Shown here one piece after another: positions 1,315 through 36,689 of a stretch of 64,000 bases of DNA. Every line of letters starts with the position of its first letter. The stretch's first letter is position 1. A program made the position numbers and the translations under genes. Source of the DNA: Oscillospiraceae bacterium (GTDB lineage: Bacteria; Bacillota; Clostridia; Oscillospirales; Oscillospiraceae); contig CADAUZ010000004.1 of the NCBI GenBank assembly GCA_902791215.1, positions 1 through 64,000 on the forward strand. The letters run 5' to 3'. Below the pieces are notes generated by a model. The model did no database searches and was not told the DNA's origin. It saw only the letters and a program-made list of their open reading frames with translations.

Positions 1315-3144
1315 TTATGCCGTCTTTACGTCAAAAATGCGCATCCACTTCTCAAGGCAGATGTAGCGGAACAGGCCGATATCGTCCTTGCCGCGGGTGA
1401 GGCTGTCCCAGTCGGCGGCGACTTTCTCCGGGTCGATGTATCTGCGGGCGCGAAAATCCGGGGCGGTGAACACGGCCCTGTACTCGTCGCTGTGGGCTGC
1501 CATCCAGGAATTTTCCGGGGTGTAAAAGCCGATCTTGTCCCGGCGTTTGCGGATCACCTCGGGCATGTCCAGGGCCTTGCGCATGATGGCCTTGGAATAG
1601 CCGTCGCTGATTTTGGCGTTGAGGGGCAGGCCCATGGCATACTCCACCAGGCGGTAGTCCAGGAAGGGCAGGCGGTCCTCAATGGAGAAGGCCATAGAGT
1701 TGCGGTCCACGTAGCGCAAAAGCGCTGGAAGGACGATGCGGTCGAAGTCGTTTAAGAGGAAGCGCTCGTTATCGGCGTAGCTGTTGGTAAGCGTGCGTTT
1801 TGCAAACACCGTCTCGAGGTAGCGGTGGCGGATATCCGAGCTGCTGGTCTTGCCGAGAAATTGGCGGATCATATTGAGGTCGGCGGCCAGCGACACGTTC
1901 TTGCCCTTGCGCATGTAGGGCAGATAATAGGCGATCTCCTTGGCGGCCCTGGCAAATTTCTTCGCCTTGATGAGGCGCTTGATGTAGTACACACGGGCCT
2001 TGCGGTAGCCGCACAGGATCTCGTCCGCCCCCTGGCCGTCGAGCAGCACCTTGGTGTTGTTCTCGTTTGCAAGCTTCATCACACAGTAGGAGGCGTACAT
2101 GCTGGTGGAGACAAAGGGCTCGTCCTGGGTGTAGATGAGGCTGTCCAGATCGGCAAAGAGCGTATCCCCGGTGGGATAGGCGTAATGGGCCTCCACGCCG
2201 GTCCGCGCGACCACGGCGTCGATATAGGTCCGCTCGTCGTTCGCGTCGCCCTGATAGCAGGAGGAGAAGGTCTTCTGCCGTTCCTTCCCGCCCTGCTCTT
2301 TGAGCTGGCGGCTGCTCTCGCAGACGATGGCGGAGGAGTCAAGCCCGCCGGAGAGGCACGAGCCAACCGGCACATCTGCGCGCAGGCGCAGCTTCACCGA
2401 TTGCTGAAACAGACGGCGAAATTCGTCGGCCTGCTTCCCTCCCGCCTCGCCGATGAGCGTCTCGCTGTAAGGTAAAGTATAGTAGCGGCGCAGGGTCTTT
2501 TTGCCGTCCGGCTCCAGGCGCAGGCAGCAGCCAGCCTCCAGGCGCGTGACGCCCTCGAAGAAGGTCTCCGCCGTGCAGTCGACAAAGCCGTTGACCAGGT
2601 AGTCGAAGATCACCTTGTCATTTGCCACGCGCGGGACATTATCGTCCTGCAAAAGCGCCTTGAGTTCGGAGGCAAAGAGCAGATAGCCCGGCGTCTCGGT
2701 GTAGTACAGGGGCTTGACGCCGTAGCGGTCACGGGAGAGGAAGAGGCTTTGGGTTTTGCTGTCATAGAGGGCGATGGCCCAGAAGCCGTTGAAGCGGGTC
2801 TGGCAGTCCTCCCCCCAGTGGTCGTAGGCCGTCAGCACCACCTCGGTATCGGTGGAGGTGGTGAAGGTGTAGCCGAACTGCTTAAGCTCCTCACGAAGCT
2901 CGATGTAGTTATATATTTCTCCGTTGAACACGAGCGTATAGCTGCCGCGCTGCATGGGCTGGTGCCCGGCGCTCGAGAGATCCAGGATCGAAAGGCGCAC
3001 ATGCCCGAGGCCCACCGGACCGTCGAGGAAGATGCCCTCGTCATCCGGGCCGCGGTGCTTCTGCGCCGCGTTCATTTTGTTCAGCAGGGCGCTGCCGTCC
3101 GGCTGTTTGTGTTCAAGGTCATAAAAACCGCAGATTCCGCACAT
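1315..3144 (-). CDS. asnB: Asparagine synthase-type glutamine amidotransferase
   Basis: 609 aa, full length for AsnB. The start is fixed by MCGICGFYD, whose Cys2 is the N-terminal nucleophile of the class II glutaminase domain (about residues 1-210, with RGPDDEG and NGEIYNY). The synthetase half has the PP-loop SCLSGGLDSSAI and a second conserved block, LDGQGADEILCGY. The enzyme takes ammonia from glutamine and adds it to an adenylated carboxylate. Its place between two glycosyltransferases, 12 bp from the upstream gene, suggests that the substrate may be a sugar acid or an aminoacyl group on the polysaccharide rather than free aspartate, as for other AsnB-like proteins in surface-glycan loci. 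That substrate is inferred; a housekeeping asparagine synthetase remains possible. Confidence 0.92.
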   Translation of the reverse strand: MCGICGFYDLEHKQPDGSALLNKMNAAQKHRGPDDEGIFLDGPVGLGHVRLSILDLSSAGHQPMQRGSYTLVFNGEIYNYIELREELKQFGYTFTTSTDTEVVLTAYDHWGEDCQTRFNGFWAIALYDSKTQSLFLSRDRYGVKPLYYTETPGYLLFASELKALLQDDNVPRVANDKVIFDYLVNGFVDCTAETFFEGVTRLEAGCCLRLEPDGKKTLRRYYTLPYSETLIGEAGGKQADEFRRLFQQSVKLRLRADVPVGSCLSGGLDSSAIVCESSRQLKEQGGKERQKTFSSCYQGDANDERTYIDAVVARTGVEAHYAYPTGDTLFADLDSLIYTQDEPFVSTSMYASYCVMKLANENNTKVLLDGQGADEILCGYRKARVYYIKRLIKAKKFARAAKEIAYYLPYMRKGKNVSLAADLNMIRQFLGKTSSSDIRHRYLETVFAKRTLTNSYADNERFLLNDFDRIVLPALLRYVDRNSMAFSIEDRLPFLDYRLVEYAMGLPLNAKISDGYSKAIMRKALDMPEVIRKRRDKIGFYTPENSWMAAHSDEYRAVFTAPDFRARRYIDPEKVAADWDSLTRGKDDIGLFRYICLEKWMRIFDVKTA

Positions 3145-3156
3145 ACCGCACTCTCC

Positions 3157-4284
3157 TTAACGGGTCCGCTGGGCTTCGATCTGTCCGATAAAGGCGCGGG
3201 CGCAGGGCTTCCAGGAGAAATCCTCCACCACCCTGTCCGCGCTCTCTGTAAGCGCTTCTTCGCTGGGGTAGTCCGACGTGAGCCAGGCCTCGATATCCGC
3301 GTCGGTATCGCACAGGCAGTGCCCGCGCATGTCCTTGAGCGTCAGGGACGGGCCGATCGCCCGGCGCGCCGCGACCGAGCAGTGGTAGTACACGGCCTCC
3401 ATGATGGCCATGCCGAAGATCTCCACCTCGCTCATGTTCACGTAGTAGTCCGACGCGGTGTAGATCTTCCACATGCTGTCGTAGGGCACGCGGTCGAGGA
3501 TCTTCACCTTGTCCTCCAGGCTGTATTCCCGGATCTTCTCATCCATCTGCGCGCGGAGCTGGCCCTTGCCCACGATCAGCAGACGGAACTTCTTTCTGTC
3601 CTGTACGCGCCGGAAAAGCTCCAGCAGCTCAAGCGGCCGCTTGTCGTCCTCGAGCCTTGCCACGCTGCAGAGGATCACGTCGTCGGCCTCGAAGCCCAGC
3701 TCTCTCTTGAGCGCCGCGCGGTCATAGCTTTGAAAATCGTGCTTGAGTACGCCCACATCCAGGCCCACCGGGGCGATGGAGATAAGCTCAGGCCGCACGC
3801 CGAGATTTATAAGCTCCTGCCTGGCGGCTTCGGTCTTGGCGAGGATCGGGGTGTGCTTATAGACGCGCAGGGTCGTGTTGGCGAAGACCTCATCCATGAT
3901 CTTCCCGCGCAGGGTGTTGACATAGAGGCTGTAGGTGGTGCCCACATAGGGAACGAAGACGATGCCGTGCCGCTTGCACCAGCCCGCCACATGGGGCAGG
4001 AAGACCTGCTGGTCGGAAAAGCAGAACAGGCCGTCCAGGTCCGGGTCGATCAGGTGATTCGGCATCCAGCCGTGGGCGACAAAATAGGGCATGGTCATGT
4101 ATTTGACGGTCAGGCGTTCGTTGATTTCGATCGTCTCCACCTGGGATTTGTCCTTGGTGCCCTTGTAGACGATGACCGTGTGGCCCATCTCCGACAGGGC
4201 GCGGCCCAGGCCGATCTCCTGGCTGTTGTAAAAGCCCTTGATGCCGAAGCGCTTCATCATGGTGCAGAGTATTCCAAGCTTCAT
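3157..4284 (-). CDS. Glycosyltransferase family 4
   Basis: 375 aa. It begins MKLGILCTMMKRFGIKGFYN and has the GT4 donor-site region: GFEADDVILCSVARLEDDKR, LLIVGKGQLRAQM, YTASDYYVNMSEVEIFGMAI (the EX7E-like part) and the following MEAVYY. The start codon overlaps the end of the upstream DUF6020/acyltransferase gene by 4 bp, so translation is likely coupled. It probably adds one sugar of the repeat unit on the cytoplasmic face of the membrane. Sugar specificity is not visible. Confidence 0.9.
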   Translation of the reverse strand: MKLGILCTMMKRFGIKGFYNSQEIGLGRALSEMGHTVIVYKGTKDKSQVETIEINERLTVKYMTMPYFVAHGWMPNHLIDPDLDGLFCFSDQQVFLPHVAGWCKRHGIVFVPYVGTTYSLYVNTLRGKIMDEVFANTTLRVYKHTPILAKTEAARQELINLGVRPELISIAPVGLDVGVLKHDFQSYDRAALKRELGFEADDVILCSVARLEDDKRPLELLELFRRVQDRKKFRLLIVGKGQLRAQMDEKIREYSLEDKVKILDRVPYDSMWKIYTASDYYVNMSEVEIFGMAIMEAVYYHCSVAARRAIGPSLTLKDMRGHCLCDTDADIEAWLTSDYPSEEALTESADRVVEDFSWKPCARAFIGQIEAQRTR

Positions 4285-9854: not shown

Positions 9855-11393
9855 TTATCGTTTGATAAGCCGCAAAAGGGCCCGTCTCTGCTCGCCGGTG
9901 CAGGCAAGCACCGCATGCAGGACGCTGCCGATCACGCCGCACACCGCGGCGCACAGGATCAGCGCAAGCCAGCCCTGCGGCATATACAGCTTTGAAAGTC
10001 CCCACAAACATGCCGTGATCACGGCGCAGGAGAGCACATTGCGTGCAATGTCCGGATAAAAGGTGCCCGCCGGCAGTTCCAGCACGTGGGCCATGTACAG
10101 GGGATTTGAGACAAAATTGATAAAGCTCATGACCGCAACCGTCGTCCAGGCCACGGCATAGACTCCCATATGGGCGTATTTGATGAGCACATACATGCCG
10201 ACGACATTGAAAAGCCCCCCAAGCAGCGTGACATAGCAGGGGAACTTCTGCTTGAGCTTGAGGGTGTAGATATAGTACAGAGGATGCATCGCCCCGTTGG
10301 GGATGCACGTCAGGATCGTCACGACCGTAAGCCTGTAGATAAGCTCCGTATCTTCACCGGGTATCCAGAGCTTGTAGAAGCTCCGGCCCAGGGCCACAAA
10401 GCCCGCAAAGGTGACGTTGGCAAGCAGTCCGGAAACCTTCATGGAGATTCTGAGCTCCCGCAGCAGCTCCTCCTTCCCGCGCTCGGCATAGGTCTTGAGA
10501 AAGCGCGGGATAAAGGCCTGGTCCACCACGGTGTAGAGGCTCTGCACAATGGTGTCCACGGTCTTGGCGATGGCGAGCTGGCCCATGGCAAGCGACGAGA
10601 GCATCTGGTTGCACACCAGCAGGTCAAGCCCGCTGTTGAGGAGATTGCCCACCATGTTGAAGGAGGCCCAGAAGCCCTCCATCACCAGCTTTTTCACCGC
10701 GGCAAAAGAATAGTACATCCGGGAGGTTTTCAGCATGGGCAAAAGCTTCCTGCTCATCCAGAGATCCGAAAGCGCGATGACGAGCGCGGCGCTCAGCGTG
10801 CCGAGGCCCACCCACGCGACCTTCGCCGGGAAAAGCACATAGGCCGCGACGAGCACCGCCGCGTTTGCCAGATACGACAGGACCTTGAAATAGCCCTTCC
10901 AGTCCATGCGATCGCACACGTAGCCCGCGCAGCCGAACACGGAGAAGACCGTCGTCACCCAGAAGGCTGTGAACGAGAGGGCAAACAGAAGCTTGACATC
11001 CTGCGCGAGCGCCGGCGGGACGGAGATCACGCGGTCGAGAAACACCGTCAGCAGCAGGGCCAGCCCCAGCAGCGCAAAGCCCAGGTACACATCGCCCCAG
11101 AACACCGAGGCATAGTAGACATTGGCCTCACGGATATCCTTCCTGTGATAGCTCAGGCCGATATAGCGCGCCGCGTAGATGTTCAGCGCGGTGGTCACGA
11201 TGGTGGCATACTGAGTAAACTGCTTTGCGAGAGTCACAAAACCGTAGGCCTCGGTGCCGACGGTCCGGGTGATGTAGGGCGTCAGGACAAGCGTGATGCC
11301 GTAGCTGACCACATAGGCCATGCCGGTGACAAACATCGTGCGGGCCATGTGCAGGACCTTGTTCCGTTTTGCGGTGTTTTCTTCCGTTGCCAC
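9855..11393 (-). CDS. Polysaccharide repeat-unit flippase (Wzx-like)
   Basis: About 512 aa with 12-14 predicted membrane segments (MARTMFVTGMAYVVSYGITL, FVTLAKQFTQYATIVTTALN, LNSGLDLLVCNQMLSSLAMG and others), typical of the MOP/polysaccharide-transport superfamily that moves lipid-linked repeat units across the membrane. I prefer a GTG start at 11393: AAGGAG lies 9 nt before it, while an in-frame ATG at 11402 directly abuts that same AAGGAG with no spacing. The longer open frame beyond this overlaps the upstream polymerase gene and reads as antisense-like Arg/Gly-rich sequence. The polymerase gene ends 20 bp upstream. Confidence 0.87.
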   Translation of the reverse strand: MATEENTAKRNKVLHMARTMFVTGMAYVVSYGITLVLTPYITRTVGTEAYGFVTLAKQFTQYATIVTTALNIYAARYIGLSYHRKDIREANVYYASVFWGDVYLGFALLGLALLLTVFLDRVISVPPALAQDVKLLFALSFTAFWVTTVFSVFGCAGYVCDRMDWKGYFKVLSYLANAAVLVAAYVLFPAKVAWVGLGTLSAALVIALSDLWMSRKLLPMLKTSRMYYSFAAVKKLVMEGFWASFNMVGNLLNSGLDLLVCNQMLSSLAMGQLAIAKTVDTIVQSLYTVVDQAFIPRFLKTYAERGKEELLRELRISMKVSGLLANVTFAGFVALGRSFYKLWIPGEDTELIYRLTVVTILTCIPNGAMHPLYYIYTLKLKQKFPCYVTLLGGLFNVVGMYVLIKYAHMGVYAVAWTTVAVMSFINFVSNPLYMAHVLELPAGTFYPDIARNVLSCAVITACLWGLSKLYMPQGWLALILCAAVCGVIGSVLHAVLACTGEQRRALLRLIKR

Positions 11394-11413
11394 AGGCAGC
11401 ATCTCCTTGATCG

Positions 11414-12736
11414 TTAAAACGCGTTTTCGGCCTGCTTCTTCGGGGGACGCGCCGTGTTCCTGACGGTCACCAGGGTACGTCTGCGCGAGCCTGCGGCGTT
11501 GCAGCCCACGGCCATGGCCAGGAAGCACGACATGATCCTATAGTCGAAGTTGCCGCCGAGGCAGCGCTCCGTCAGGCCGTTAATGGTCAGGAAGGTCATG
11601 ATGCCGATGCACAGGCGGTACTGATCGTCCCGCAGACTGTTCATGTCACGGAAGGAAAAGATCGCCATGAAGAATAATGCGGCCAGGCCCAGCAGCCCCG
11701 AATTGAGCCAGGCTTCCATGATGACGTTGTGCGCGCCGGTGGTAAGCGTGGCCATGAAGGGGTCCTTGCGCATGCTGAAGCCTGTCTGGAATTTCAGCAG
11801 GGCGGTGGGATCACGCCAGAACATGCCGTAGCCGAAGCCGGTCATGGTCCGGTTCGCGGTCATGACCTCGATGACCCTGCGCCAGATCGGAATGCGTCCG
11901 GTGAGGGTGGCGTCCTTCCCCATCGCAACCAGCATATTCTCGAAGTAAGGCATCAGCGCCAGCATGCAGAACAGGAACACCACGTTCGCCGAAATGTAGA
12001 TAAGCCCCAGCGGCAGGCGTTGGTTCGGAAAAACAAAGATGGACAGGACCGCCAGGAGTGCTGTGATATTGGCGCCCATCGCCTGGCACATGAGCAGCAG
12101 CACGATCTGGATGAGCAGCAGGACCCACCAGTGAAGCTCCCTTCTCCGGGACCCCTGCTTTTCGCGCAGCAGCAGCACCGTCACCACGATGCCGAATACC
12201 AGTTCGGTCGCGCAGGCGTTTTTCGTCTCGAACAGGCCGATGAGGGCATGGTTCTGATCTTCCATGTTTGAGTAGGCCTGGGAGCGGAAGATCACCATAA
12301 AAAGAAGGGTGAACAGCACAAGGGCTCCCTGGGCGATGCAGAGCATCTCCAGCAGCTCCCGGATGCTGTAGCGCTCCTGCAGCCAGATCACGAACAGCAG
12401 CGTCACCACGAGGCGCACGCAGGTGATGGCCTGGGCCTTCATGTCATAAGTGACGAGCATGGAAATGCCGAAGCAGGAAAACACATACAGGTACATGGCC
12501 CAGTATTTCCTGTTCAGATGGATCAGCTCTATATCCTGCCAGGAGTCGCTGCTGGAAAACATCAGCAGCAGGAGCTCCAGGAAAAAGGCGCCGTATTCCA
12601 GCAGCTTTTCCATCGACTCGCCCATCACGTTCGTCAGGTTTCCGGGGAAGCCCAAGGACACCAGAAAGCTGAAAATGATGGCCAGCTCAAAAAATACCTC
12701 GGTCTCACGCTTTCTCTGGTTGCGCGGATCTGTCAT
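11414..12736 (-). CDS. O-antigen ligase/polymerase-like membrane protein (Wzy)
   Basis: 440 aa with about 11-12 hydrophobic segments and a larger loop before the last ones (GRIPIWRRVIEVMTANRTMT, GFGYGMFWRD, TGAHNVIMEAWLNSGLLGLA). The pattern R-x-x-x-W...G-x-G...H-N is the O-antigen ligase/Wzy signature loop. In a Wzx/Wzy pathway this protein joins repeat units on the outside of the membrane. It lies directly before the flippase, which supports the role. The start ATG at 12736 follows a GGGAGGGGGAAG-type ribosome site. Confidence 0.83.
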   Translation of the reverse strand: MTDPRNQRKRETEVFFELAIIFSFLVSLGFPGNLTNVMGESMEKLLEYGAFFLELLLLMFSSSDSWQDIELIHLNRKYWAMYLYVFSCFGISMLVTYDMKAQAITCVRLVVTLLFVIWLQERYSIRELLEMLCIAQGALVLFTLLFMVIFRSQAYSNMEDQNHALIGLFETKNACATELVFGIVVTVLLLREKQGSRRRELHWWVLLLIQIVLLLMCQAMGANITALLAVLSIFVFPNQRLPLGLIYISANVVFLFCMLALMPYFENMLVAMGKDATLTGRIPIWRRVIEVMTANRTMTGFGYGMFWRDPTALLKFQTGFSMRKDPFMATLTTGAHNVIMEAWLNSGLLGLAALFFMAIFSFRDMNSLRDDQYRLCIGIMTFLTINGLTERCLGGNFDYRIMSCFLAMAVGCNAAGSRRRTLVTVRNTARPPKKQAENAF

Positions 12737-12844: not shown

Positions 12845-13549
12845 TCATCCTTCGTAATTGTGTGAGGGCATCGCCCTGCGGATGAGTTTGTACAGCAGCA
12901 GTCCCACAAGGGCCCCCACGGTGTTGGCGACAAGGTCCTCGAGGTCGCACTGGCCGTTTCGCATGAGAAGCTGCGTTGTCTCGATGATGGTCGTCAGCAG
13001 CATGCCCAGCGGCAGCACGGTGCTGATTTTTGCAAGGCTCGGATGAATGGCGGCAAAGAGCGCCCCGATCGGCAAGAACATCACAATATTCAGCCACAGG
13101 TGCTGCAGCGGCGCGAGAGAACGGCGGTTGATGGCCTCCCGGATGGAATCAAAGCTCAGCAGGATGTCCGTCTGTACCTTCCCGCGGCGGGAGAAAATCG
13201 TGATATAGCTGACCATCAGCAGGTAGAGAAGGAACATCACCAGGGCGGTCTTATTGCAATCGCGGAAGTTTTTGACGACAAACGAGACAAAGGCATACAC
13301 GCCAAAAAAAGCCGCCAGGATCAGCAGCGACAGAAAGGCAAAGCTCATGCCTCCCATCTGACTGATGATCAGAACCAGCGGCAGTGAAATCAGAAGATAG
13401 ACTCCAAGCAGTACAACCGCCAGCAGCGGGATGGAGGCCCGGCTGGCAGCCCGCCTGGCGACCGCCTGGAAGAGATAAAAATACCCGCACATCAGCAGGA
13501 TCACAATCAGCAGCAGCTGCATGCTGTCAAAGTTTCCGGTTCGCCACAC
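12845..13549 (-). CDS. VanZ-family membrane protein
   Basis: 234 aa. The N-terminal half has three hydrophobic segments; the C-terminal half matches VanZ: LWLNIVMFLPIGALFAA, LGMLLTTIIETTQLLMRNGQ, CDLEDLVANTVGALVGLLLY, with the conserved Asn, Glu and Asp-Asn positions in membrane helices. The first codon appears to be GTG at 13549 with GGAG 11 nt upstream; an ATG nine codons in has a poorer ribosome site. VanZ proteins occur in glycopeptide-resistance and surface-polymer loci, but their biochemical role is unsettled. Here it is in the middle of the polysaccharide operon, 49 bp from a tiny membrane protein gene. Confidence 0.85.
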   Translation of the reverse strand: MWRTGNFDSMQLLLIVILLMCGYFYLFQAVARRAASRASIPLLAVVLLGVYLLISLPLVLIISQMGGMSFAFLSLLILAAFFGVYAFVSFVVKNFRDCNKTALVMFLLYLLMVSYITIFSRRGKVQTDILLSFDSIREAINRRSLAPLQHLWLNIVMFLPIGALFAAIHPSLAKISTVLPLGMLLTTIIETTQLLMRNGQCDLEDLVANTVGALVGLLLYKLIRRAMPSHNYEG

Positions 13550-16138: not shown

Positions 16139-17842
16139 TCATGTCTGGTTCTGGATTATTTCCGCGTTCTGTTTTTTCCGTTTGCGTACCCTGCGGACGA
16201 TCAGCACGGTCAGGAGAACGATGCCCAGCAGGCACGCAGCCGCGTAGATGATGTAGTGCACGATGTAGGAGTCGCGCAGGTTGATCGTCTGAACCTCCGC
16301 GGTGTTGAGCACGCGCACATCGTAGCGGGTGTCCTTGTCGCCGCTCTTGATAAGGTAATAGGCGCCGGGATCGAGCGTCTCCATGCTCATGGCGCTGCCG
16401 GAGCTGGTCCAGGTGTAGATCAGACCGTCCCTGTCGGAGTAGAGCGCGAGGTTGATGCCGGGGATCTGCATGTCGCTGAACTCGTCGGTGATGCCGAACT
16501 GCACGCGAATGATGCGGTTGGTGGCCTCCACCATGGACTCGGCCTCGCCGGACATGTAGCCGTAGGCGTCCACCGGCACAAGCACCTCAGGCTCGGTGAT
16601 GCGGTAGTTGCCGACAGCCTCCGTCTGGCGGATGCGGTAGGTCGTCCCCTTCTCCACGGCGTCGAGGACAAATTTGCCGTTGGAGTTCGTGGTGATCTCG
16701 ATGGGCTCGCCGCGGCCGGACAGGACCTCAAACTTTGCGCCCGCAATGCCGCTTTCGGGGTAGAGCTCGTCGTTGAGGGAGAAGCGGATGCGCATGCGCT
16801 GGCTGGCGATGGTCGCGGGTGCCGGCGCAACAGTGGATTTCTTGACGACCTCCACCGCGGTATCCTCGAGGATGCCCGCGTAGTACTGGGGGATATCCCG
16901 CTCATGCAGCGTGTAGTTGCCGAGATACAGCTCTCCGCTTTCGCCGAAGCCGGTCTCGTCGCAGATGATCTCGTCCACAATCTGGCCGATGCGGTAGCGC
17001 AGGGTGCCGTCGGCGGTGATGATGTTCTCCGCCGCCACCACTTCAAAGCTGCCGCCGGAGATCTTGCTGCCGTTTTCGGCGTCGACCATCTGCACGCGGA
17101 TCACATTCTTCGAGGGCATGACCGGCACACGCACGACATATGGGTCGGGCCAGTCATAAGTGTCATTGAGGATGAACTCGATGTTCTCCGAGCTCTCGTA
17201 GCCCTCCGCCTCGGTCAGCTCATGCAGTTCATAGCCGCCGGCGGCCAGCTTCTCCGGGAAGTAGTAGGTGCCGGTGTCCGTGGTCTCGTAGAAGCGGAAG
17301 GACTGGCGCTCGGGATAATAGGTATTGAGGATCTGGAGGGCGTGGTTCTCGCCGTACAGCTCAAACTGGACGTTTGCCTCCTTGACGGTGCGGTCGGTCT
17401 CGGCGTCGACAAGCATGACATAGACCGCCGATTTTCTGCCGAGGTCCGGATCGTCGCCCGGGCCTTCGCCCTGGCCGTTGCCGCCGCCGTCGCCGCCGCC
17501 GCTGCCGCCGCCGCTGCCCGGCAGGTCGGGTGTCGGGGTAACGGTGGGAGTGGGCGTGGGTGTGGGTGTGGGCGAGGGCTCAATATCGAAGGTCGGGACC
17601 GGCGACCAGCCGCCGCCTCCGCCGCCGTCGTCGCCCTTCCAGGTCGCGGTAGGTGTGGGCGTGTTTCCGCCGTCGTCGTCACCGTACCAGGGGTCGATCT
17701 CATCGTTGTCGGGTATATGTACGAGATACAGACACAAGAGCAGAATGATGAGCATCAAAATCAGCATCAGCGCACTGAACATATCAGACGCAGGCTGCCA
17801 GTAGTTCATCTCGCTGTCGTTCTGCTTTTTGAACTTCTTCAT
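16139..17842 (-). CDS. MotB-like anchor with Cna-B-type stalk
   Basis: 567 aa. The short N-terminus MKKFKKQNDSEMNYWQPASD leads into a single helix (about 21-42). Asp20 at its mouth, in W-x-x-x-x-D-M-F-S-A-L, sits where MotB, ExbD and ZorB carry the proton-accepting Asp. A low-complexity linker rich in Gly, Asp and Pro-Thr repeats (about 43-135) follows, then about four beta-rich modules (about 140-525) with SpaA/Cna-B features such as YVMLVDAETDRTVKEANVQF and GYELHELTEAEGY. A second helix (about 526-549) and a basic tail end the protein. No OmpA-like peptidoglycan domain or LPXTG is present. The start overlaps the channel-EAL gene by 4 bp. It probably pairs with that channel and reaches into the wall or polymer layer. 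The domain calls are by eye. Confidence 0.72.
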   Translation of the reverse strand: MKKFKKQNDSEMNYWQPASDMFSALMLILMLIILLLCLYLVHIPDNDEIDPWYGDDDGGNTPTPTATWKGDDGGGGGGWSPVPTFDIEPSPTPTPTPTPTVTPTPDLPGSGGGSGGGDGGGNGQGEGPGDDPDLGRKSAVYVMLVDAETDRTVKEANVQFELYGENHALQILNTYYPERQSFRFYETTDTGTYYFPEKLAAGGYELHELTEAEGYESSENIEFILNDTYDWPDPYVVRVPVMPSKNVIRVQMVDAENGSKISGGSFEVVAAENIITADGTLRYRIGQIVDEIICDETGFGESGELYLGNYTLHERDIPQYYAGILEDTAVEVVKKSTVAPAPATIASQRMRIRFSLNDELYPESGIAGAKFEVLSGRGEPIEITTNSNGKFVLDAVEKGTTYRIRQTEAVGNYRITEPEVLVPVDAYGYMSGEAESMVEATNRIIRVQFGITDEFSDMQIPGINLALYSDRDGLIYTWTSSGSAMSMETLDPGAYYLIKSGDKDTRYDVRVLNTAEVQTINLRDSYIVHYIIYAAACLLGIVLLTVLIVRRVRKRKKQNAEIIQNQT

Positions 17843-19410
17843 TGCTTGCTTTCCCCTGAAATCTGCTTTTCAAACTCTTCCGCGGGGATGGGTCTTGAAA
17901 GGTAGAAGCCCTGGCCTTCCGAGCAGCCGCATCTGCGCAGCATGGTAAGCTGCTCCATGCTTTCGATGCCCTCCACCGCGACATTGATGTTGATCTTCCT
18001 GGCCTGCTCAAACACGGCGTTGAGCGCGCCCTGATTCTGTCTGCCGTCGAAGCGGCGCAGATCCAGCTTGAGCACGTCGACGGAGAGTCTGTCGATGGTG
18101 CTCAGGGAAATATAGTCGCCGTTGAAGCCGTCCATGATGACCCGGAAGCCCAGCTGACGCAGCTTTTCTTCGGTCTCGAGCACGGACTGCGGGGATTCGA
18201 GATAGGCGTTCTCCGCGATCTCCACCTCCAGATAGCGGGGCGGGATGCGGTACTTTTTGAGCATTTCTTCCATGAAGCCCGCAAGGTCCATGGCCAGGAT
18301 ATCGGTCTTGGTGGCGTTGATAGCCAGGGGCATGGGGCGCACGCCGTTGTCGATCCAGCGGCGGATGGTGGCGAAGACACTTTCCCAGATATACTGGTCG
18401 AGCTTGGTGATATAACCGTTTTTCTCAAGGATGGGGATGAACACCGCCGGGGACACGGTGCCGAGCTTGCCGTGGTTCCAGCGGACCAGGGCCTCGCCGC
18501 CGATGACCTTGCGGGTGTTGAGGTCGTGCTTGGTCTGCAGATAGAATACAAACTCGCCGCTGCGCATGCCCTCAAGGATCTGGGGCATAAGGATCTGCTC
18601 GTTGCTGTCGGCGGAGGCGGGAGCGCCCCTGCCGATCTGGCCGGAGGCGGAGAAGCCCGCGTTTTTGGGCAGGCGCTCGAGAAGCTCGGTGATCTGCTTG
18701 AGCTCCTTCTGCTCGCGATAGCGGACCTGGTCGCCCACGGGCGGGATGACGTTTTTATGGAACTCCTCCGTGAAAAGGCCGAGGTTGCGGCGCAGCATGT
18801 TCCAGGAGATGCGGTAGATGATGTTGAACATAAGCGACAGGATCATGCCGGCGATGGAGGTGTAGAATGCCACCTGAATACCGCTCAGCAGCGTCTGCAC
18901 GCTCGTCAGGGCGATGTCGATCGAGCTGAAGCCGATGCCGCGGATACCGATCAGCAGGCCGATGAAGGTGCCCAGAATGCCGAGACCGGTCAGGGTGCCG
19001 GGGATCTGGAGCACGACGTTCTGCCAGGAGCGCAGGGCGAGGATGTCCTCGTTGATATAGTCCTCGATATCCGTCAGGGCCTGGCCGGATTCGCGCTGTA
19101 CCTGGACCTTCTCCCGGTAGTCGCGGAACAGGCCGTCCAGCGTGCGCTGGTGGAAGAAGTCCTCGATCTGGGACATGACGGACCAGGTGGAGCTGGTCTG
19201 TACCTCCAGCGCCCTTTCTATATTGTTCAGGCCCGTTTCAAAGGCGTGGTAATATGACACCACCGGCAATATGCCGAGCACCACGCCCGCCAGCACGATG
19301 CACTCCATAATGACGATGAACACCGTGGAAATATTGTCCGGCGCGTATGAGGTCAGCACGATGCCGCCGATCAGGATAAAAATTACCAGCGTATAAATCA
19401 GTCTTCGCAT
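17839..19410 (-). CDS. MotA/TolQ/ExbB-type channel fused to EAL domain
   Basis: 523 aa. Membrane helices lie at about 4-23, 29-54, 133-158 and 174-200. The last two match the MotA/TolQ/ExbB/ZorA core (IPGTLTGLGILGTFIGLLIG, GIQVAFYTSIAGMILS). The loop at 55-130 and the C-terminal 300 residues should be cytoplasmic. Residues about 272-515 are an EAL c-di-GMP domain: Glu306-Ala-Leu, Asn366, Glu397, Asp427, Lys448, Glu480 and Gln500 are kept, but the DDFGTG loop reads DGFNGD, so the second metal-binding Asp is Gly428. It may therefore bind c-di-GMP rather than hydrolyse it. It is the first gene of the polysaccharide operon and overlaps the MotB-like gene by 4 bp. I infer a ligand-controlled, ion-powered membrane motor or force transducer. 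Confidence 0.8.
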   Translation of the reverse strand: MRRLIYTLVIFILIGGIVLTSYAPDNISTVFIVIMECIVLAGVVLGILPVVSYYHAFETGLNNIERALEVQTSSTWSVMSQIEDFFHQRTLDGLFRDYREKVQVQRESGQALTDIEDYINEDILALRSWQNVVLQIPGTLTGLGILGTFIGLLIGIRGIGFSSIDIALTSVQTLLSGIQVAFYTSIAGMILSLMFNIIYRISWNMLRRNLGLFTEEFHKNVIPPVGDQVRYREQKELKQITELLERLPKNAGFSASGQIGRGAPASADSNEQILMPQILEGMRSGEFVFYLQTKHDLNTRKVIGGEALVRWNHGKLGTVSPAVFIPILEKNGYITKLDQYIWESVFATIRRWIDNGVRPMPLAINATKTDILAMDLAGFMEEMLKKYRIPPRYLEVEIAENAYLESPQSVLETEEKLRQLGFRVIMDGFNGDYISLSTIDRLSVDVLKLDLRRFDGRQNQGALNAVFEQARKININVAVEGIESMEQLTMLRRCGCSEGQGFYLSRPIPAEEFEKQISGESKQ

Positions 19411-19610: not shown

Positions 19611-19639
19611 AGTATAGCACCTTTGAATAGCACTTTCAA
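19611..19639 (-). promoter_or_regulatory. Promoter of the polysaccharide operon
   Basis: On the minus strand: TTGAAA, 17-nt spacer, TATACT. This leaves a leader of about 190 nt before the ATG at 19410. It is the only strong promoter I see for the 19-kb operon. Confidence 0.75.
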
Positions 19640-19711: not shown

Positions 19712-19747
19712 AAAAAAACAAGCTGCGGTTTTCAGGCCGCAGCTTGT
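19712..19747 (-). terminator. Terminator of the surface-protein operon
   Basis: An 11-bp perfect stem, ACAAGCTGCGG/CCGCAGCTTGT, with an 8-nt loop, followed on the minus strand by a run of seven T. It lies 17 bp after the stop of the leucine-rich protein gene and insulates it from the polysaccharide operon. Confidence 0.9.
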
Positions 19748-19763
19748 TATGGGTCCGCTCTCT

Positions 19764-20273
19764 TCAGTTCAGGGAAAGGAAGGGCAGGGTAGCGGGGGGC
19801 TGGACAGCTTCCTCGGACGGGAACTCCGCCGACAGCTTTACCGGGACAAAGGGGATGCCACTTGCGTCCGCAAAGAGCTTGGCTTCGCTGTTTGCCGCAC
19901 CGTAGATCGTGACGTTTTCACTCCCCTGGAAGGCGGTGTCGTCGATGCTCTCCACGCTTGCGGGGATGAGGATCGCGGTGAGGTTCAGGCAGTCGGCAAA
20001 GGCGCGCGGGCCGATGGCGCCGACGTTATCGGAGACCTCGATCCTCTCCGCGCCGACGCCCTCAAAGGCGCTGTCCCAAATGGCGACCAGTCCGGAGGGC
20101 AGGACGAAGTCGGCCCCGCCAAAGCCGGCGCTGATGCTCTCCAGAGGAGTCACGACCACAACGGTCTCCCCGTCCATCGTGATGACCTCCACCGTTACGC
20201 CCTCCTCAGCCCAAGCGGAAGCGCCCAGGCTCAGGAGAAAGGCGGCGATGAGAAGAATACAAAGTTTTTTCAT
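19764..20273 (-). CDS. Small secreted leucine-rich (BspA-type) protein
   Basis: About 169 aa from the ATG at 20273, chosen because GGAGGG lies about 8 nt upstream and a signal peptide starts there (MKKLCILLIAAFLLSLGASA, cleaved after AWA). The mature part has BspA/LRR_5-type repeats: LPSGLVAIWDSAFEGVGAER, NVGAIGPRAFADCLNLTAIL, IPASVESIDDTAFQGS. Such repeats mediate protein or host-surface contacts. There is no membrane anchor or sorting signal. The start overlaps the stop of the 43-aa peptide gene (ATGA), so the two are translated together. The family call is good; the ligand is unknown. Confidence 0.82.
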   Translation of the reverse strand: MKKLCILLIAAFLLSLGASAWAEEGVTVEVITMDGETVVVVTPLESISAGFGGADFVLPSGLVAIWDSAFEGVGAERIEVSDNVGAIGPRAFADCLNLTAILIPASVESIDDTAFQGSENVTIYGAANSEAKLFADASGIPFVPVKLSAEFPSEEAVQPPATLPFLSLN

Positions 20274-20401
20274 GATATGTTCCCTCCGGGTCCACTTACA
20301 GCAATGCAATTTGTTGTGCAGACAGCAGGGCAGCTTGTGATAATCACATCCTCGTTATCGAACTCAATAACTTCCATTTTCGGAGATTCATATTTTTCCA
20401 T
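20270..20401 (-). CDS. 43-aa three-cysteine peptide
   Basis: A short gene with start ATG at 20401, a GGAGG site 8 nt upstream and a TGA that overlaps the next ATG (ATGA). The peptide begins MEKYESPKMEVIEFDNED; after an acidic/hydrophobic N-terminal half it has Cys24, Cys28 and Cys32 (C-x3-C-x3-C) in a Thr/Ser/Pro context and a Gly-rich end (SGPGG). There is no signal peptide. It starts 17 bp after the 1875-aa protein gene. The tight spacing on both sides strongly supports expression. The layout (conserved acidic leader-like half, Cys/Ser/Thr-rich core) resembles a RiPP precursor, but no modifying enzyme is in the window; a metal-binding or anti-toxin role is equally open. Confidence 0.7.
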   Translation of the reverse strand: MEKYESPKMEVIEFDNEDVIITSCPAVCTTNCIAVSGPGGNIS

Positions 20402-20418: not shown

Positions 20419-23400
20419 TCAGGGATTGCAGGACCTTGCCGCCATGCAGTAATCATACAGAGCGGTTAGGGCCAGGTTTTCATCCTCCGCGCGGTCGGCA
20501 ACGAGTACGGAGTCCACATAGGAAAGGGCAGAGGTAAACACGTCATAGACGACGTTTCCGTCGACCGTGACCTCAATGTGCCAGTTCTTGCCCAGGTTGT
20601 TGGCCGCGATGTCGGGGATCTCAATCATGTAGTAATAATTGCCTATGTCAGTGACGGGGTACTCGGCACCGTCCACGGTTACGGAGATGGAAGCCGGGGT
20701 ATTCTTGAGCACCACATAGGTCCTCATTCCCGTATTGTCAAGGTGGTTCAGGTTATACAGCACCTTCTCCACCACATCCGCGTCGCAGCCCTTGGGTCCC
20801 CACTGGCGGCGGAATTCCGGCAGCTCCTTGAGCGCGGTGATCTGGGTCGCGGCGGGCATTTCCTCATAGTCGCCGTCGGGTCCGAAGGTGTAGCCGTGGA
20901 GGCGGCCCAGGTAGGGCTGGACATAGTGGCCGTAGTTTGCGATGGCGTCAAGGATGCTCACGTCCATGAGACCCGCGTTGCGCATATCCTCGAGGTACTG
21001 CCTGATGGAGATGAACTTGCGGGCCACGCCCGTGTCGCCGTAGTGGAAGACGGCGGAGATAGGCTCGGCCATCTCGAGAGAGTACACCGGGCAGGTGAAG
21101 ACGTGGCAGCCGTCGATGTAATCCGCCTCGGACAGCGGGATCTCATAGTGCCGGTCGTGGATGCTCAATTCCATCCAGGCCGGGTCGTTTACGAAGCTCT
21201 CGGACAATACCACGTAGAAGCGCATGCCGATGGTGCCGTCAAGCCGCAGGTCGCAGCCGATGATGGCGGACTGGGCAAAGAGGGCGGAGACATACACGTC
21301 GGTGCTCGGCATGGTGAAGGAGAAGGTGCTGTCGGCGTTGCGGGTGAAGGGAACGCTCATGTCGCCCCGGCGCACGACGAGGGTCTTGAGGGCATATTCG
21401 GTGTCAGGCGTCGCGGTGATGGTGACGGTCTCGCCCGGCAAGGCGCTCATCTTATCCACGGAGAGCTTGCCGAACTCGGCGGGCATGAGGTAGACCGGAT
21501 GCTCGCCGATGATCTCGGCGGTAACGGGGCCGGACCACTCCGTAAGCTCGACGTAGTTGGGGTCGCCCGCGACCTTGTACCAGATATCATACTCGCCCGC
21601 GTCCCGCTTCTTGGGCGTACCGGCAAGGGTGTTCTTCCGGTCGAAGCTGAACCAGATGCGCAGGGAGCTGTCGGGGCGCACGGTGGGCGTGACGAGGTTC
21701 TGGTATTCGCCGTCGCAGATCGTGCCCTCAATGGGCCGGATGTCGTAATCGTCGCCCATGACGGGGTACTTCTGATAGACGGTAAAGTCGGCGGTGACGG
21801 TCTTCGTGTTGTCATAGAGGTCCGAGCCCGCCACGGCGCGCACCACGTATTCGCCCGCGTCCACGGGGAGGCTGGCGGCGTAGTCGGAGTCGTCCGCGTC
21901 GCGCCGCTTGTAGGAGAGGGTGACGGGGATGCGGTCGGGATTGCCGGTGATCTCGGGCGTCTTCGGCTCATCGTCGTAGGTCCAGTTTTCGATGCTGACA
22001 GCCAGATCCGGGGCCATCTTCTCGACATCGCCGACGATGCGGATTTCCGCGCCGTGGCCGTAGAAGATAGTTGCAACGTTGGGATTCGTGCTGTCCACAC
22101 GGTAGTAGATCCGGTAGATGCCGATATCGTCCCCCTCGGGAACGCCGAGCACATCGTTGAAGCCGTCCGTGCTGTAATACACGGTCAGGCCGTCCACCTT
22201 GGGGAACACAACGGGATCGATGACCAGGGGCTGGAGCTCACCGGTGGCCGGGAGCCTGTCGTTGGGGAAGCTGAGCTTGGGGATCGCCTTGGCAATGGGG
22301 ATCACCAGCTCGCCGGGCTCGCCCACCATACTGCCGTTTGCCTTGTCAAAGACCGCAAACAGGATGGAATAGTCTCCCGCGTCCGTGCCGGTGGGAATGG
22401 CGCTTGTATAAGTCGGCGCGTCGGACTTCACCGCGTAGCGGTACTCGTAGCCCTCCTCGTCGGTCACGCCGCCCTCCAGCAGCGCCTGGGACTCCATATT
22501 GTACATGAGGCCGGCCTTGGGGATGGGGTCCTGGGTCTTCGCGGTCCTGACAGTCAGGCCGTCGCCGATCGGTGTTTGCGGGAAGACAGATGTTTCCTTG
22601 TAATACGCATAGAAGGTATATTCCGTGTCCGGGAGGAGGTCTTCAAAGTCGGGGACCTCCCTCCAGTCCCATGCGGTGGACTGGGATTGATGATCGTCAT
22701 AGGCGAACATCACGTTTTCCATAGCCTCGAGGACCACGCGGTGAGCCGTGACGGTCTTCGCAACGGGCGTGGGGCCTTTGATCGGCTTGATCCATGAGGT
22801 CAGGCAGTGGTAGGAATAGTATTCATCCGTATACCACACATAATAGGCGCCCATTTCCGTGCCCGTCGGGACATTGGAGCTGAAGGCCTCCTTCGGGGGC
22901 TGCGTCGTGCTGTCGGTTCCGAGGGCGTAATAATAATCCCTGTGGTGATCGAGGCTCGGCTGGCCTCTTACAACAAGCTCCTGCGGCTGTCCGGTATAGT
23001 CGAGAACCCTTGCGTAGGGCGGATGAGTCGTTAAGCTTTCCATGTTGCCCGTGGCAAGAACGACCTTTTCGCTGGCGGGGCTGATGGTATAGTTGCCGTC
23101 TTCCTTATAACGCTGCTGGAAGTTGTAGCCCGAACGATACTGCAGGCCATCGAAGACGGGGCTGTCCTGCCAGGGGTTGCTGCCGATGCGGTACTCACCG
23201 TTTTCGATCTCATTGAGCGTGATGGAATTGGGCGTGATATAGGCCACCGTGGGGGCTTCGGGCGCGGGGCGCTCGGCCTTTGCGATCTCCACGGGGATGG
23301 GGCCGTAGACCGCGGAATCCGGGAAGCCGCCGGTGTGATCGGCCGCCTTGTACCATACATAGTACATACCCGCGTACATGGCCTGCGGCAGAGCGGCCGA

Positions 23401-36304: not shown

Positions 36305-36479
36305 ATATTCATAGCCAAGATAGAGGCGCGGCGTTCAAGAGTACACCCCCGCACGGAAGCAGCTTTCGCGGGAACGGAAAGGGAACATCGCCGAAGTAAA
36401 GAAGTGCAGCTGCGTGTTTCTTTACTGGGCCGTCGGAAAAGATCCGCCGGACTGTCACGCGAGTGGAGTGCTATCGAGT

Positions 36480-36689
36480 ACAGGATTCACCGCCGGGGCC
36501 ACCGACGCCCACCAGTATGAGCGCATCTGCGACACCTGCCTGCGCTGCAGCCCCTTCATGGTCGAAAAGTCCCTGGCGCGAAGCGGCGTGCACGGCACGG
36601 ACGAGCACATCCCCGTGCGTTCCTACCTGCAGGGCATCCGCGTACTCATGCGGATCATGGAGCTGGGCAATATCGACGCCCAGGTGTGA
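36480..36689 (+). pseudogene. C-terminal remnant of an M20-family peptidase
   Basis: About 69 codons in one frame, ending in TGA. They read TGFTAGATDAHQYERICDTC and later SGVHGTDEHIPVRSYLQGIR, matching the end of M20 dipeptidases: G-[GA]-T-D-A followed by the HGxxExI metal-site segment (here HGTDEHIPV). No start codon, ribosome site or upstream catalytic part is present; the sequence before about 36480 no longer matches. A deletion has removed roughly 85 % of the gene. No function is expected. Confidence 0.7.

Follow-up and report, generated by a model that had tools for sequence, protein, structure and literature searches.

A stator-type protein fused to an EAL domain and a stalk-bearing partner lead a Wzx/Wzy-type polysaccharide operon in gut and rumen Clostridia

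Among the described stator-type pairs, GldLM, which serves gliding and type 9 secretion in diderm Bacteroidota, carries stacked beta domains on the external part of GldM, and the cyclic di-GMP (c-di-GMP) receptors of exopolysaccharide systems, exemplified by BcsA, PelD, Alg44 and YdaK, are of the PilZ or GGDEF type. To our knowledge, descriptions of Wzx/Wzy polysaccharide assembly do not usually include a stator-type force generator of its own. Here we describe two adjacent genes, A and B, of an Oscillospiraceae bacterium (assembly GCA_902791215.1, contig CADAUZ010000004.1, positions 1 to 64,000, or G000:C4:1-64000; this whole stretch of 64,000 nucleotides is termed the window), in which a membrane core homologous to MotA, ExbB and ZorA is fused to an EAL domain, the partner bears a stalk of beta modules, the polar and acidic membrane residues are conserved, and the pair is linked to a Wzz-type gene. 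We assign high confidence to a polysaccharide role of A-B and moderate confidence to powered work by the pair, while the whole chain, in which a stator-like unit driven by ions and tuned by c-di-GMP acts on polysaccharide assembly of the Wzx/Wzy type, would have slightly less than an even chance of being correct. The initial annotation of the window had proposed the stator-type core with its EAL domain, and had named as tests a match of residues 130-200 of A to the MotA/ExbB family, conservation of Asp20 of B among homologues and linkage of the pair across genomes. Its interpretation, a c-di-GMP-sensing and ion-powered device, is supported in part: the architecture and the connection to polysaccharide have good support, whereas power from ions and sensing of c-di-GMP are putative.

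The closest described relatives of the core are the ZorAB complexes, for which the text of PMC11890865 drawn on here reports that 8VVN is type I ZorAB of Shewanella and 8VVI type II ZorAB of Sulfuricurvum kujiense, that D24 (8VVN) and D21 (8VVI) are the critical aspartates packed against a ring of serine and threonine residues, and that a bound sodium is visible in the type I complex. Protein A contains four hydrophobic stretches and, as the initial annotation had anticipated, residues 107-202 match PF01618 above the cut-off (29.4 versus 22.9 bits; 31.9 bits in a search of the genome, where the A of this pair is the only protein to pass). The stator-type profiles closest to A are those of ZorA in both NCBIfam and PADLOC (ZorA1, 4.6e-18). 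Indeed, a profile built from ten A cores retrieved six distinct sequences from the PDB at E values up to 1, all of which are ZorA (8VVN 5.9e-16; four 8QY entries 5e-13 to 3e-12; 8VVI 3.7e-6), and on such comparisons we would place homology of the core to the MotA/ExbB/ZorA stator family at very high confidence. T148 and S185 are retained in all 20 A proteins of the clade defined below and align with T147 and S184 of EcZorA (positions counted in the printed alignment), polar transmembrane (TM) residues around the aspartate. Asp20 of B together with T148 and S185 would be compatible with ion flow.

The first helix of B matches PADLOC ZorB (1.3e-4 to 6.7e-4), and a B profile finds the ZorB chains of 8VVI (6.5e-5), 8VVN (0.0035) and 8QYD (0.007). 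As the printed alignments show, Asp20 pairs with the critical ZorB residues, 21 in 8VVI and 24 in 8VVN, and it is present in 20/20 B proteins of the clade, even where identity over residues 1-45 falls to 33% (L016) and 21% (L017); the conservation on which the initial annotation had staked its proposal is thus borne out. The same holds for its description of an external part that lacks OmpA and is made up of a Pro/Thr/Gly linker, four beta modules and a second helix. The modules had been called Cna-B-like, and although four are indeed present in the AlphaFold model (predicted local distance difference test mostly >90), Pfam files them as SpaA (prealbumin-like; 7.1e-22, three stretches), not Cna_B. 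The SpaA/Cna-B identity of the modules is backed by both profile and fold. With respect to the strand-A lysine of an intramolecular isopeptide bond, 'QMVD' of module 2 aligns with 'TKID' of 3kpt, and the other first strands, inspected by eye on the sequence, show no lysine at that place. In the divergent members the conservation of modules 1 and 2 mostly exceeds that of modules 3 and 4 and of the second TM helix. That second helix would, on the predicted topology, place both ends of B in the membrane and so replace a peptidoglycan anchor.

These features set the pair apart from its relatives. Like ZorAB (8VVN, 8VVI, 8QYD), it has a matching core and first helix in which the critical aspartate and the polar residues align; unlike ZorAB, A continues from residue 279 as an EAL domain where ZorA has an elongated cytoplasmic tail, and B has four prealbumin modules plus a further TM helix where ZorB has a peptidoglycan-binding domain. 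A PF01618 protein beside a partner with a single aspartate-bearing helix is equally the arrangement of MotAB, ExbBD, TolQR, AglRS and the generic ion transporters, as set out in the parts of PMC12505986 consulted, which surveys 379 retained homologues and notes extra domains on non-flagellar members. In contrast with flagellar MotAB, B has neither an OmpA-like domain nor a MotB plug (no Pfam match of OmpA or MotB_plug at E values up to 1), and no flagellar, Ton or Tol partner was seen by Pfam among the operon genes of the window. B resembles GldM in bearing several stacked beta domains outside, although GldM ends outside the inner membrane, while B is predicted to re-enter it.

The EAL domain of A (Pfam, 3.4e-52, a value that upholds the EAL assignment of the initial annotation) retains the site residues E306, R310, N365, E397, E400, D427, K448, D450, E480 and Q500, but has G428 and an NGD loop where active EAL domains show Asp and GTG. 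Thus the catalytic set (EAL, N, ExxE, DD, K, E, Q) is complete except for the second Asp of DDFGTG and the GTG loop. Glycine occupies position 428 in 19/19 EAL-bearing loci (DDFGTG becomes DGF), and in 17 of these the following loop is N/D-G-D/N instead of GTG. The other EAL domains identified by Pfam in the same genome, in contrast, keep both aspartates in 12/12 cases (DDFG[S/T]G in 11, DDYGVG in one) and hold the whole catalytic residue set, the middle loop residue being variable. Further changes are seen in the first Glu of ExxE, which is Asp in L015, L075 and L128, and in L074, where Ser replaces E480. The EAL domain and the motor core are conserved to a similar degree, with identities of 68-72% (EAL) versus 60-78% (core) in L008 and L010-L013, and 62.0 versus 57.6% in L015. 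Fold-search matches of A include the EAL domains of FimX and LapD; the latter is a degenerate EAL receptor that binds without clear turnover. In the sections of PMC7148300 used here, DDFGTG supplies two metal-coordinating aspartates needed for activity, and FimX has a degenerate EAL fold with a weakened metal site and binds without clear turnover. The EAL domain of A shares the weakened site. Because one metal-binding aspartate is lost in all 19 loci while both are kept in the 12 other domains, this domain may be read, with moderate confidence, as a receptor for c-di-GMP and not as an enzyme of much strength. The EAL domains of FimX and LapD, however, sit in GGDEF-EAL proteins, whereas that of A is carried by an ion-channel-type subunit. 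Control of a stator-type motor by c-di-GMP has a parallel in the flagellar brake YcgR, which, in the part of PMC13432727 available, is a separate protein acting on stator units and not a fused domain. Similarly, BcsA, PelD, Alg44 and YdaK share with this locus a c-di-GMP effector (putative here) encoded in a polysaccharide operon, but here it is an EAL domain on a stator-type protein in an operon of the Wzx/Wzy type.

A scan of genome contigs returned 48 relatives, 16 of which (L002-L017) form one group with this A-B layout; the clade as used here comprises 20 loci, namely these 16, the window, G470 (L074), G511 (L075) and L128, an unverified faecal record, and it is found in uncultured gut and rumen Clostridia. 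The order A-B-Wzz occurs in 19/19 loci with room for it (the L009 contig stops inside B) and persists down to 37-42% identity in A, and the linkage across genomes that the initial annotation had set as a test is borne out. The genes upstream vary from locus to locus. A and B overlap in 14/20 loci (by 4 bp; in L012 the choice of start codon makes it 4 or 1 bp) and lie 17-28 bp apart in the other six, and a VanZ-like gene occurs later in the cluster in 14/20. In the window both genes are on the minus strand, share the 4-bp overlap noted at the outset, and lead a run of polysaccharide genes; the operon had been described as having 12 genes, of which the leading position of the pair stands, but the window starts at a contig end that cuts the operon off, leaving 11 complete genes counted up to that end. 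The Wzx and Wzy genes are over cut-off (PF01943, 51 bits against 28.2; PF04932, 37.6 against 31.7). In the Wzz-type protein the ATPase part passes (AAA_31, 54.3 against 27) and the Wzz part stays below curated cut-offs (PF02706, 19.8 against 25.5 bits; TIGR01006, 1.1e-11; eps_fam, 3.8e-24); from the combined layout we would still call the product Wzz. The Walker A pattern was not found in the Wzz-type proteins of L008, L013, L016 and L017, and L010 gave a match in the tail only. Since the Wzz gene is kept although the pattern was not found in four loci, the constant partner seems to be the Wzz part rather than the kinase.

A wider set of relatives, L018-L049, is mostly from Lachnospiraceae (one is Acetatifactor muris DSM 23669). 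All ten of the A proteins scanned from this set match PF01618, nine of them over cut-off, and none has an EAL domain at E values up to 0.01. The partner, where found, begins with a helix of the W..SYSDMM type, and the neighbourhoods vary, with no Wzz cluster like that common to L016 and L017. This two-gene pair resembles an uncharacterised stator-type unit. The genome of the window itself encodes a second stator-like pair (G000:C5; L108 4091-6153), with OmpA on its B protein, no EAL domain on its A protein at E values up to 0.01 and a PF01618 score just under the cut-off. As a control for the absence of OmpA from B, this domain is over cut-off in 5/5 partners scanned, four from L018-L049 and this paralogue. 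In an unrooted tree of 52 cores (rows L009, L022 and L026, which are truncated, and L128 set aside) the clade (18 rows) makes up one side of a single branch with support 100/99; OmpA and a non-EAL tail may be the older state, with the EAL domain and SpaA modules derived. The genome survey, own genome included, gave hits in 5/200 genomes of the family, 4/394 of the order, 30/391 of the class and 17/398 of the phylum. The clade is rare: beyond its own genome, it was placed in 2/394 order genomes (G470, G511) and 2/391 class genomes (G564, G871). The remaining hits score lower than clade members, and wider neighbourhoods were examined for G163, G095, G451, G880, G748, G109 and G815. A further A-like core, 25% identical over 225 residues, lies at L004:1903-3072 on the minus strand, about 7 kb from the A-B pair of that locus. 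L128 corresponds to MT835828.1, a record from human faeces that is labelled 'Bacteriophage sp.', unverified and unannotated; it contains A, B, Wzz, Wzy, VanZ, Wzx and glycosyltransferases. The record is probably a bacterial contig rather than a phage, and a mobile or phage origin of the operon was rejected on this reading and on the lack of any plasmid match.

The likeliest mechanism for the pair is as follows. Several A subunits would encircle two B subunits at their first helices, in a 5:2 ratio by analogy with ZorAB, and a flow of ions past the Thr/Ser ring of A and Asp20 of B would drive A against B. The EAL domains beneath A would form a cytoplasmic ring which, given the lost metal ligand, would probably bind c-di-GMP without efficient hydrolysis and gate or tune the unit. 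On the outside, the linker and the four stiff beta modules of B would act as a stalk whose second helix is predicted to return to the membrane, so that the membrane or the Wzz/Wzy complex, and not peptidoglycan, may anchor B; lying outside the A ring, and perhaps tied to Wzz or Wzy, this helix could be the fixed point for movement of A. The unit might then act on the Wzz-Wzx-Wzy machine by supplying ion-powered force with which chain length is controlled or the polymer is released or moved through the wall. A bolder version is a c-di-GMP-gated rotary or stroke motor that channels ion-gradient energy into building or export of surface polysaccharide in single-membrane bacteria, its adhesin-like stalk replacing the anchor and looping back beside Wzz/Wzy, and the EAL ring of A being coupled to the polymerase or chain-length regulator; this we consider doubtful as a whole.

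It should be emphasized that several observations weigh against the proposed unit. A scores 5.6e-16 (58.6 bits) against the ZorA model NF033915, below its curated cut-off of 100; the single sequence of B matches ZorB poorly (8VVI, E 0.013; 8VVN, 0.56); and the fold search of A gave only EAL domains among the 50 matches listed, which says nothing of the core. The linkage to Wzz indicates a shared process, not energy transfer. With respect to signalling, the EAL domain of L016 is ruined, nearly all site residues being gone, and A of L017 has no EAL domain. Because one relative is without the domain and another has it ruined, c-di-GMP control of the unit is not universal. A search for GGDEF domains covered 18 clade genomes (those of every clade locus but L009 and L128). 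In favour of c-di-GMP control, GGDEF is present in 17 of them, and the genome of the window is rich in c-di-GMP signalling, with 29 GGDEF and 13 EAL matches. The genome of L016 (G564) has 7 GGDEF and 3 EAL matches, yet the EAL domain of its A is ruined, and that of L017 (G871) has 24 and 7, yet its A lacks the domain; conversely, the genome of L012 has 0 GGDEF matches (its completeness is not stated) although the EAL domain of its A is conserved. It could be argued that decay of the domain tracks loss of c-di-GMP signalling, but L016 and L017 retain GGDEF and L012 presents the reverse, and the explanation was rejected. Because the EAL domain decays in two genomes with GGDEF and is conserved in one without, it may in some lineages have a part in structure or in binding proteins, whether in addition to c-di-GMP binding or in its place.

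Other readings of the pair were weighed against the proposal of an ion-driven unit. The EAL domain could be a working phosphodiesterase and the signal could run inward, the stalk or ion flow reporting on the envelope or polymer and A lowering c-di-GMP locally, which would make the pair a sensor and not an engine. We regard this as unlikely: glycine at position 428 in every EAL-bearing locus and the altered GTG loop in most of them affect the very DDFGTG motif that is required for activity in the portion of PMC7148300 cited, and to these must be added the ExxE and E480 substitutions and the loss of the site in L016. Similarly, A-B may be a non-energised scaffold in which the stator fold serves assembly only and the pair brings Wzz, Wzy and c-di-GMP together. 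The stator family's output modules have indeed been replaced, with OmpA missing from B and EAL present on A, and B might not rotate freely with two TM helices; a mere scaffold, however, would not need Asp20 and T148/S185, which are kept even in L016 and L017 despite the divergence of B, and we hold this reading to be quite unlikely.

That the pair is a Zorya-type phage defence system which happens to precede a polysaccharide operon gains something from the fact that the best stator-type matches of A and of the first B helix are ZorA and ZorB. The layout nevertheless largely refutes it: the EAL domain replaces the ZorA tail, B lacks a peptidoglycan-binding OmpA domain, and the neighbours are constantly polysaccharide genes. 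None of ten neighbouring window proteins scanned matches ZorC, ZorD, ZorE or any other PADLOC model (E values up to 0.001; the products of 107-1303 and 1315-3144 lay outside the scan). Membership of Zorya was rejected on the ZorA cut-off, the tail, the OmpA domain and the neighbours, although the ZorA scores remain evidence of kinship of the core, and as an explanation of the locus it is extremely improbable. Scarcely more credible is the view that pair and operon share no function and stand side by side through common descent alone. Alignment A1 holds 15 relatives, twelve of them with 65-98% identity to A, a range in which synteny comes cheaply, but the order is kept in L016, L017, L074, L075 and L128 at 37-55% identity of A, against a background of differing upstream genes and with A and B overlapping in most loci.

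Although the motor family is known, the combination of an EAL domain on A, a Cna-B-type stalk with membrane return on B and linkage to Wzz appears to be new. The words 'EAL', 'c-di-GMP' and 'polysaccharide' do not occur in the main text of PMC12505986, nor do MotA or stator in the available text of PMC8461298, a review of c-di-GMP control of exopolysaccharides. In the open literature of PubMed Central (PMC) no paper joins ZorA, EAL domain and c-di-GMP, or MotA, ExbB, TolQ and EAL domain, and none describing the A-B-Wzz layout was found there, in keeping with the opinion of the initial annotation that it was undescribed. The pair suggests an unrecognised powered step in the building of bacterial coats, and would open two questions to experiment: is energy spent on exporting polymer across a thick wall, and can c-di-GMP control a motor when no brake protein stands between them? 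If the proposed unit is real, the jobs of the MotA/ExbB/ZorA superfamily would widen beyond motility, uptake, division and defence.

Table 1. Coordinates in the window of genes A and B, their domains and key codons, the downstream operon genes and candidate control sites.
Feature	Position	Strand	Profile
Protein A, 523 aa; ZorA/MotA-like membrane core fused to EAL; operon gene 1	17839..19410	-	
MotA/TolQ/ExbB region of A, residues 107-202; TM3/TM4 and conserved T141, T148, T184, S185	18805..19092	-	PF01618
EAL domain of A, residues 279-507	17890..18576	-	
Gly428 codon of A; second Asp of DDFGTG in active EAL domains	18127..18129	-	
Protein B, 567 aa; TM helix of ZorB/MotB type followed by linker, four prealbumin-like modules, TM helix 2 and basic tail	16139..17842	-	
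TM helix 1 of B, residues 15-41; holds Asp20	17720..17800	-	
Asp20 codon of B; aligns with ZorB D21 (8VVI) and D24 (8VVN)	17783..17785	-	
Pro/Thr/Gly low-complexity linker of B, residues 42-136; predicted disordered	17435..17719	-	
Four SpaA/Cna-B-type beta modules of B, about residues 138-524	16271..17431	-	
C-terminal TM helix and basic tail of B, residues 527-566	16145..16264	-	
Wzz-type polysaccharide co-polymerase with BY-kinase-like ATPase domain, 773 aa	13799..16120	-	
VanZ-like membrane protein	12845..13549	-	Pfam
Wzy-type polymerase / O-antigen ligase family protein	11414..12736	-	PF04932
Wzx-type flippase	9855..11528	-	PF01943
GT4 glycosyltransferase, 762 aa	7536..9824	-	Pfam
DUF6020 and acyltransferase-3 membrane protein, 1076 aa	4281..7511	-	Pfam
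Glycosyltransferase	3157..4284	-	Pfam
Asparagine synthase-like amidotransferase	1315..3144	-	Pfam
Glycosyltransferase, final complete gene before contig end	107..1303	-	
Promoter-like site 5' of A: TTGAAA, 17, TATACT, TG before -10; consensus match only	19611..19639	-	
Terminator-like hairpin between upstream LRR gene and A, 12-bp stem and T run; consensus match only	19717..19748	-	

The promoter-like site lies between A and the terminator-like hairpin; in the scanned stretch three such promoter-like sites were found against 2.2 expected by shuffling, and nine terminator-like hairpins against 7.1. No c-di-GMP riboswitch precedes the operon at the Rfam gathering threshold, and no plasmid match was obtained for the locus. 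At that threshold Rfam matches the window once, with RF00168, a lysine riboswitch (89 bits) at 36313-36481 on the plus strand. Upstream of A, on the minus strand, lie a small LRR_5 protein (19764-20309) and a secreted-looking protein of 1875 residues (20419-26046) whose match to the aerolysin family is weak (E 0.008) and under the cut-off. Both genes are missing between A and the SBP5 gene in L003, and they look like a lineage-specific insertion.

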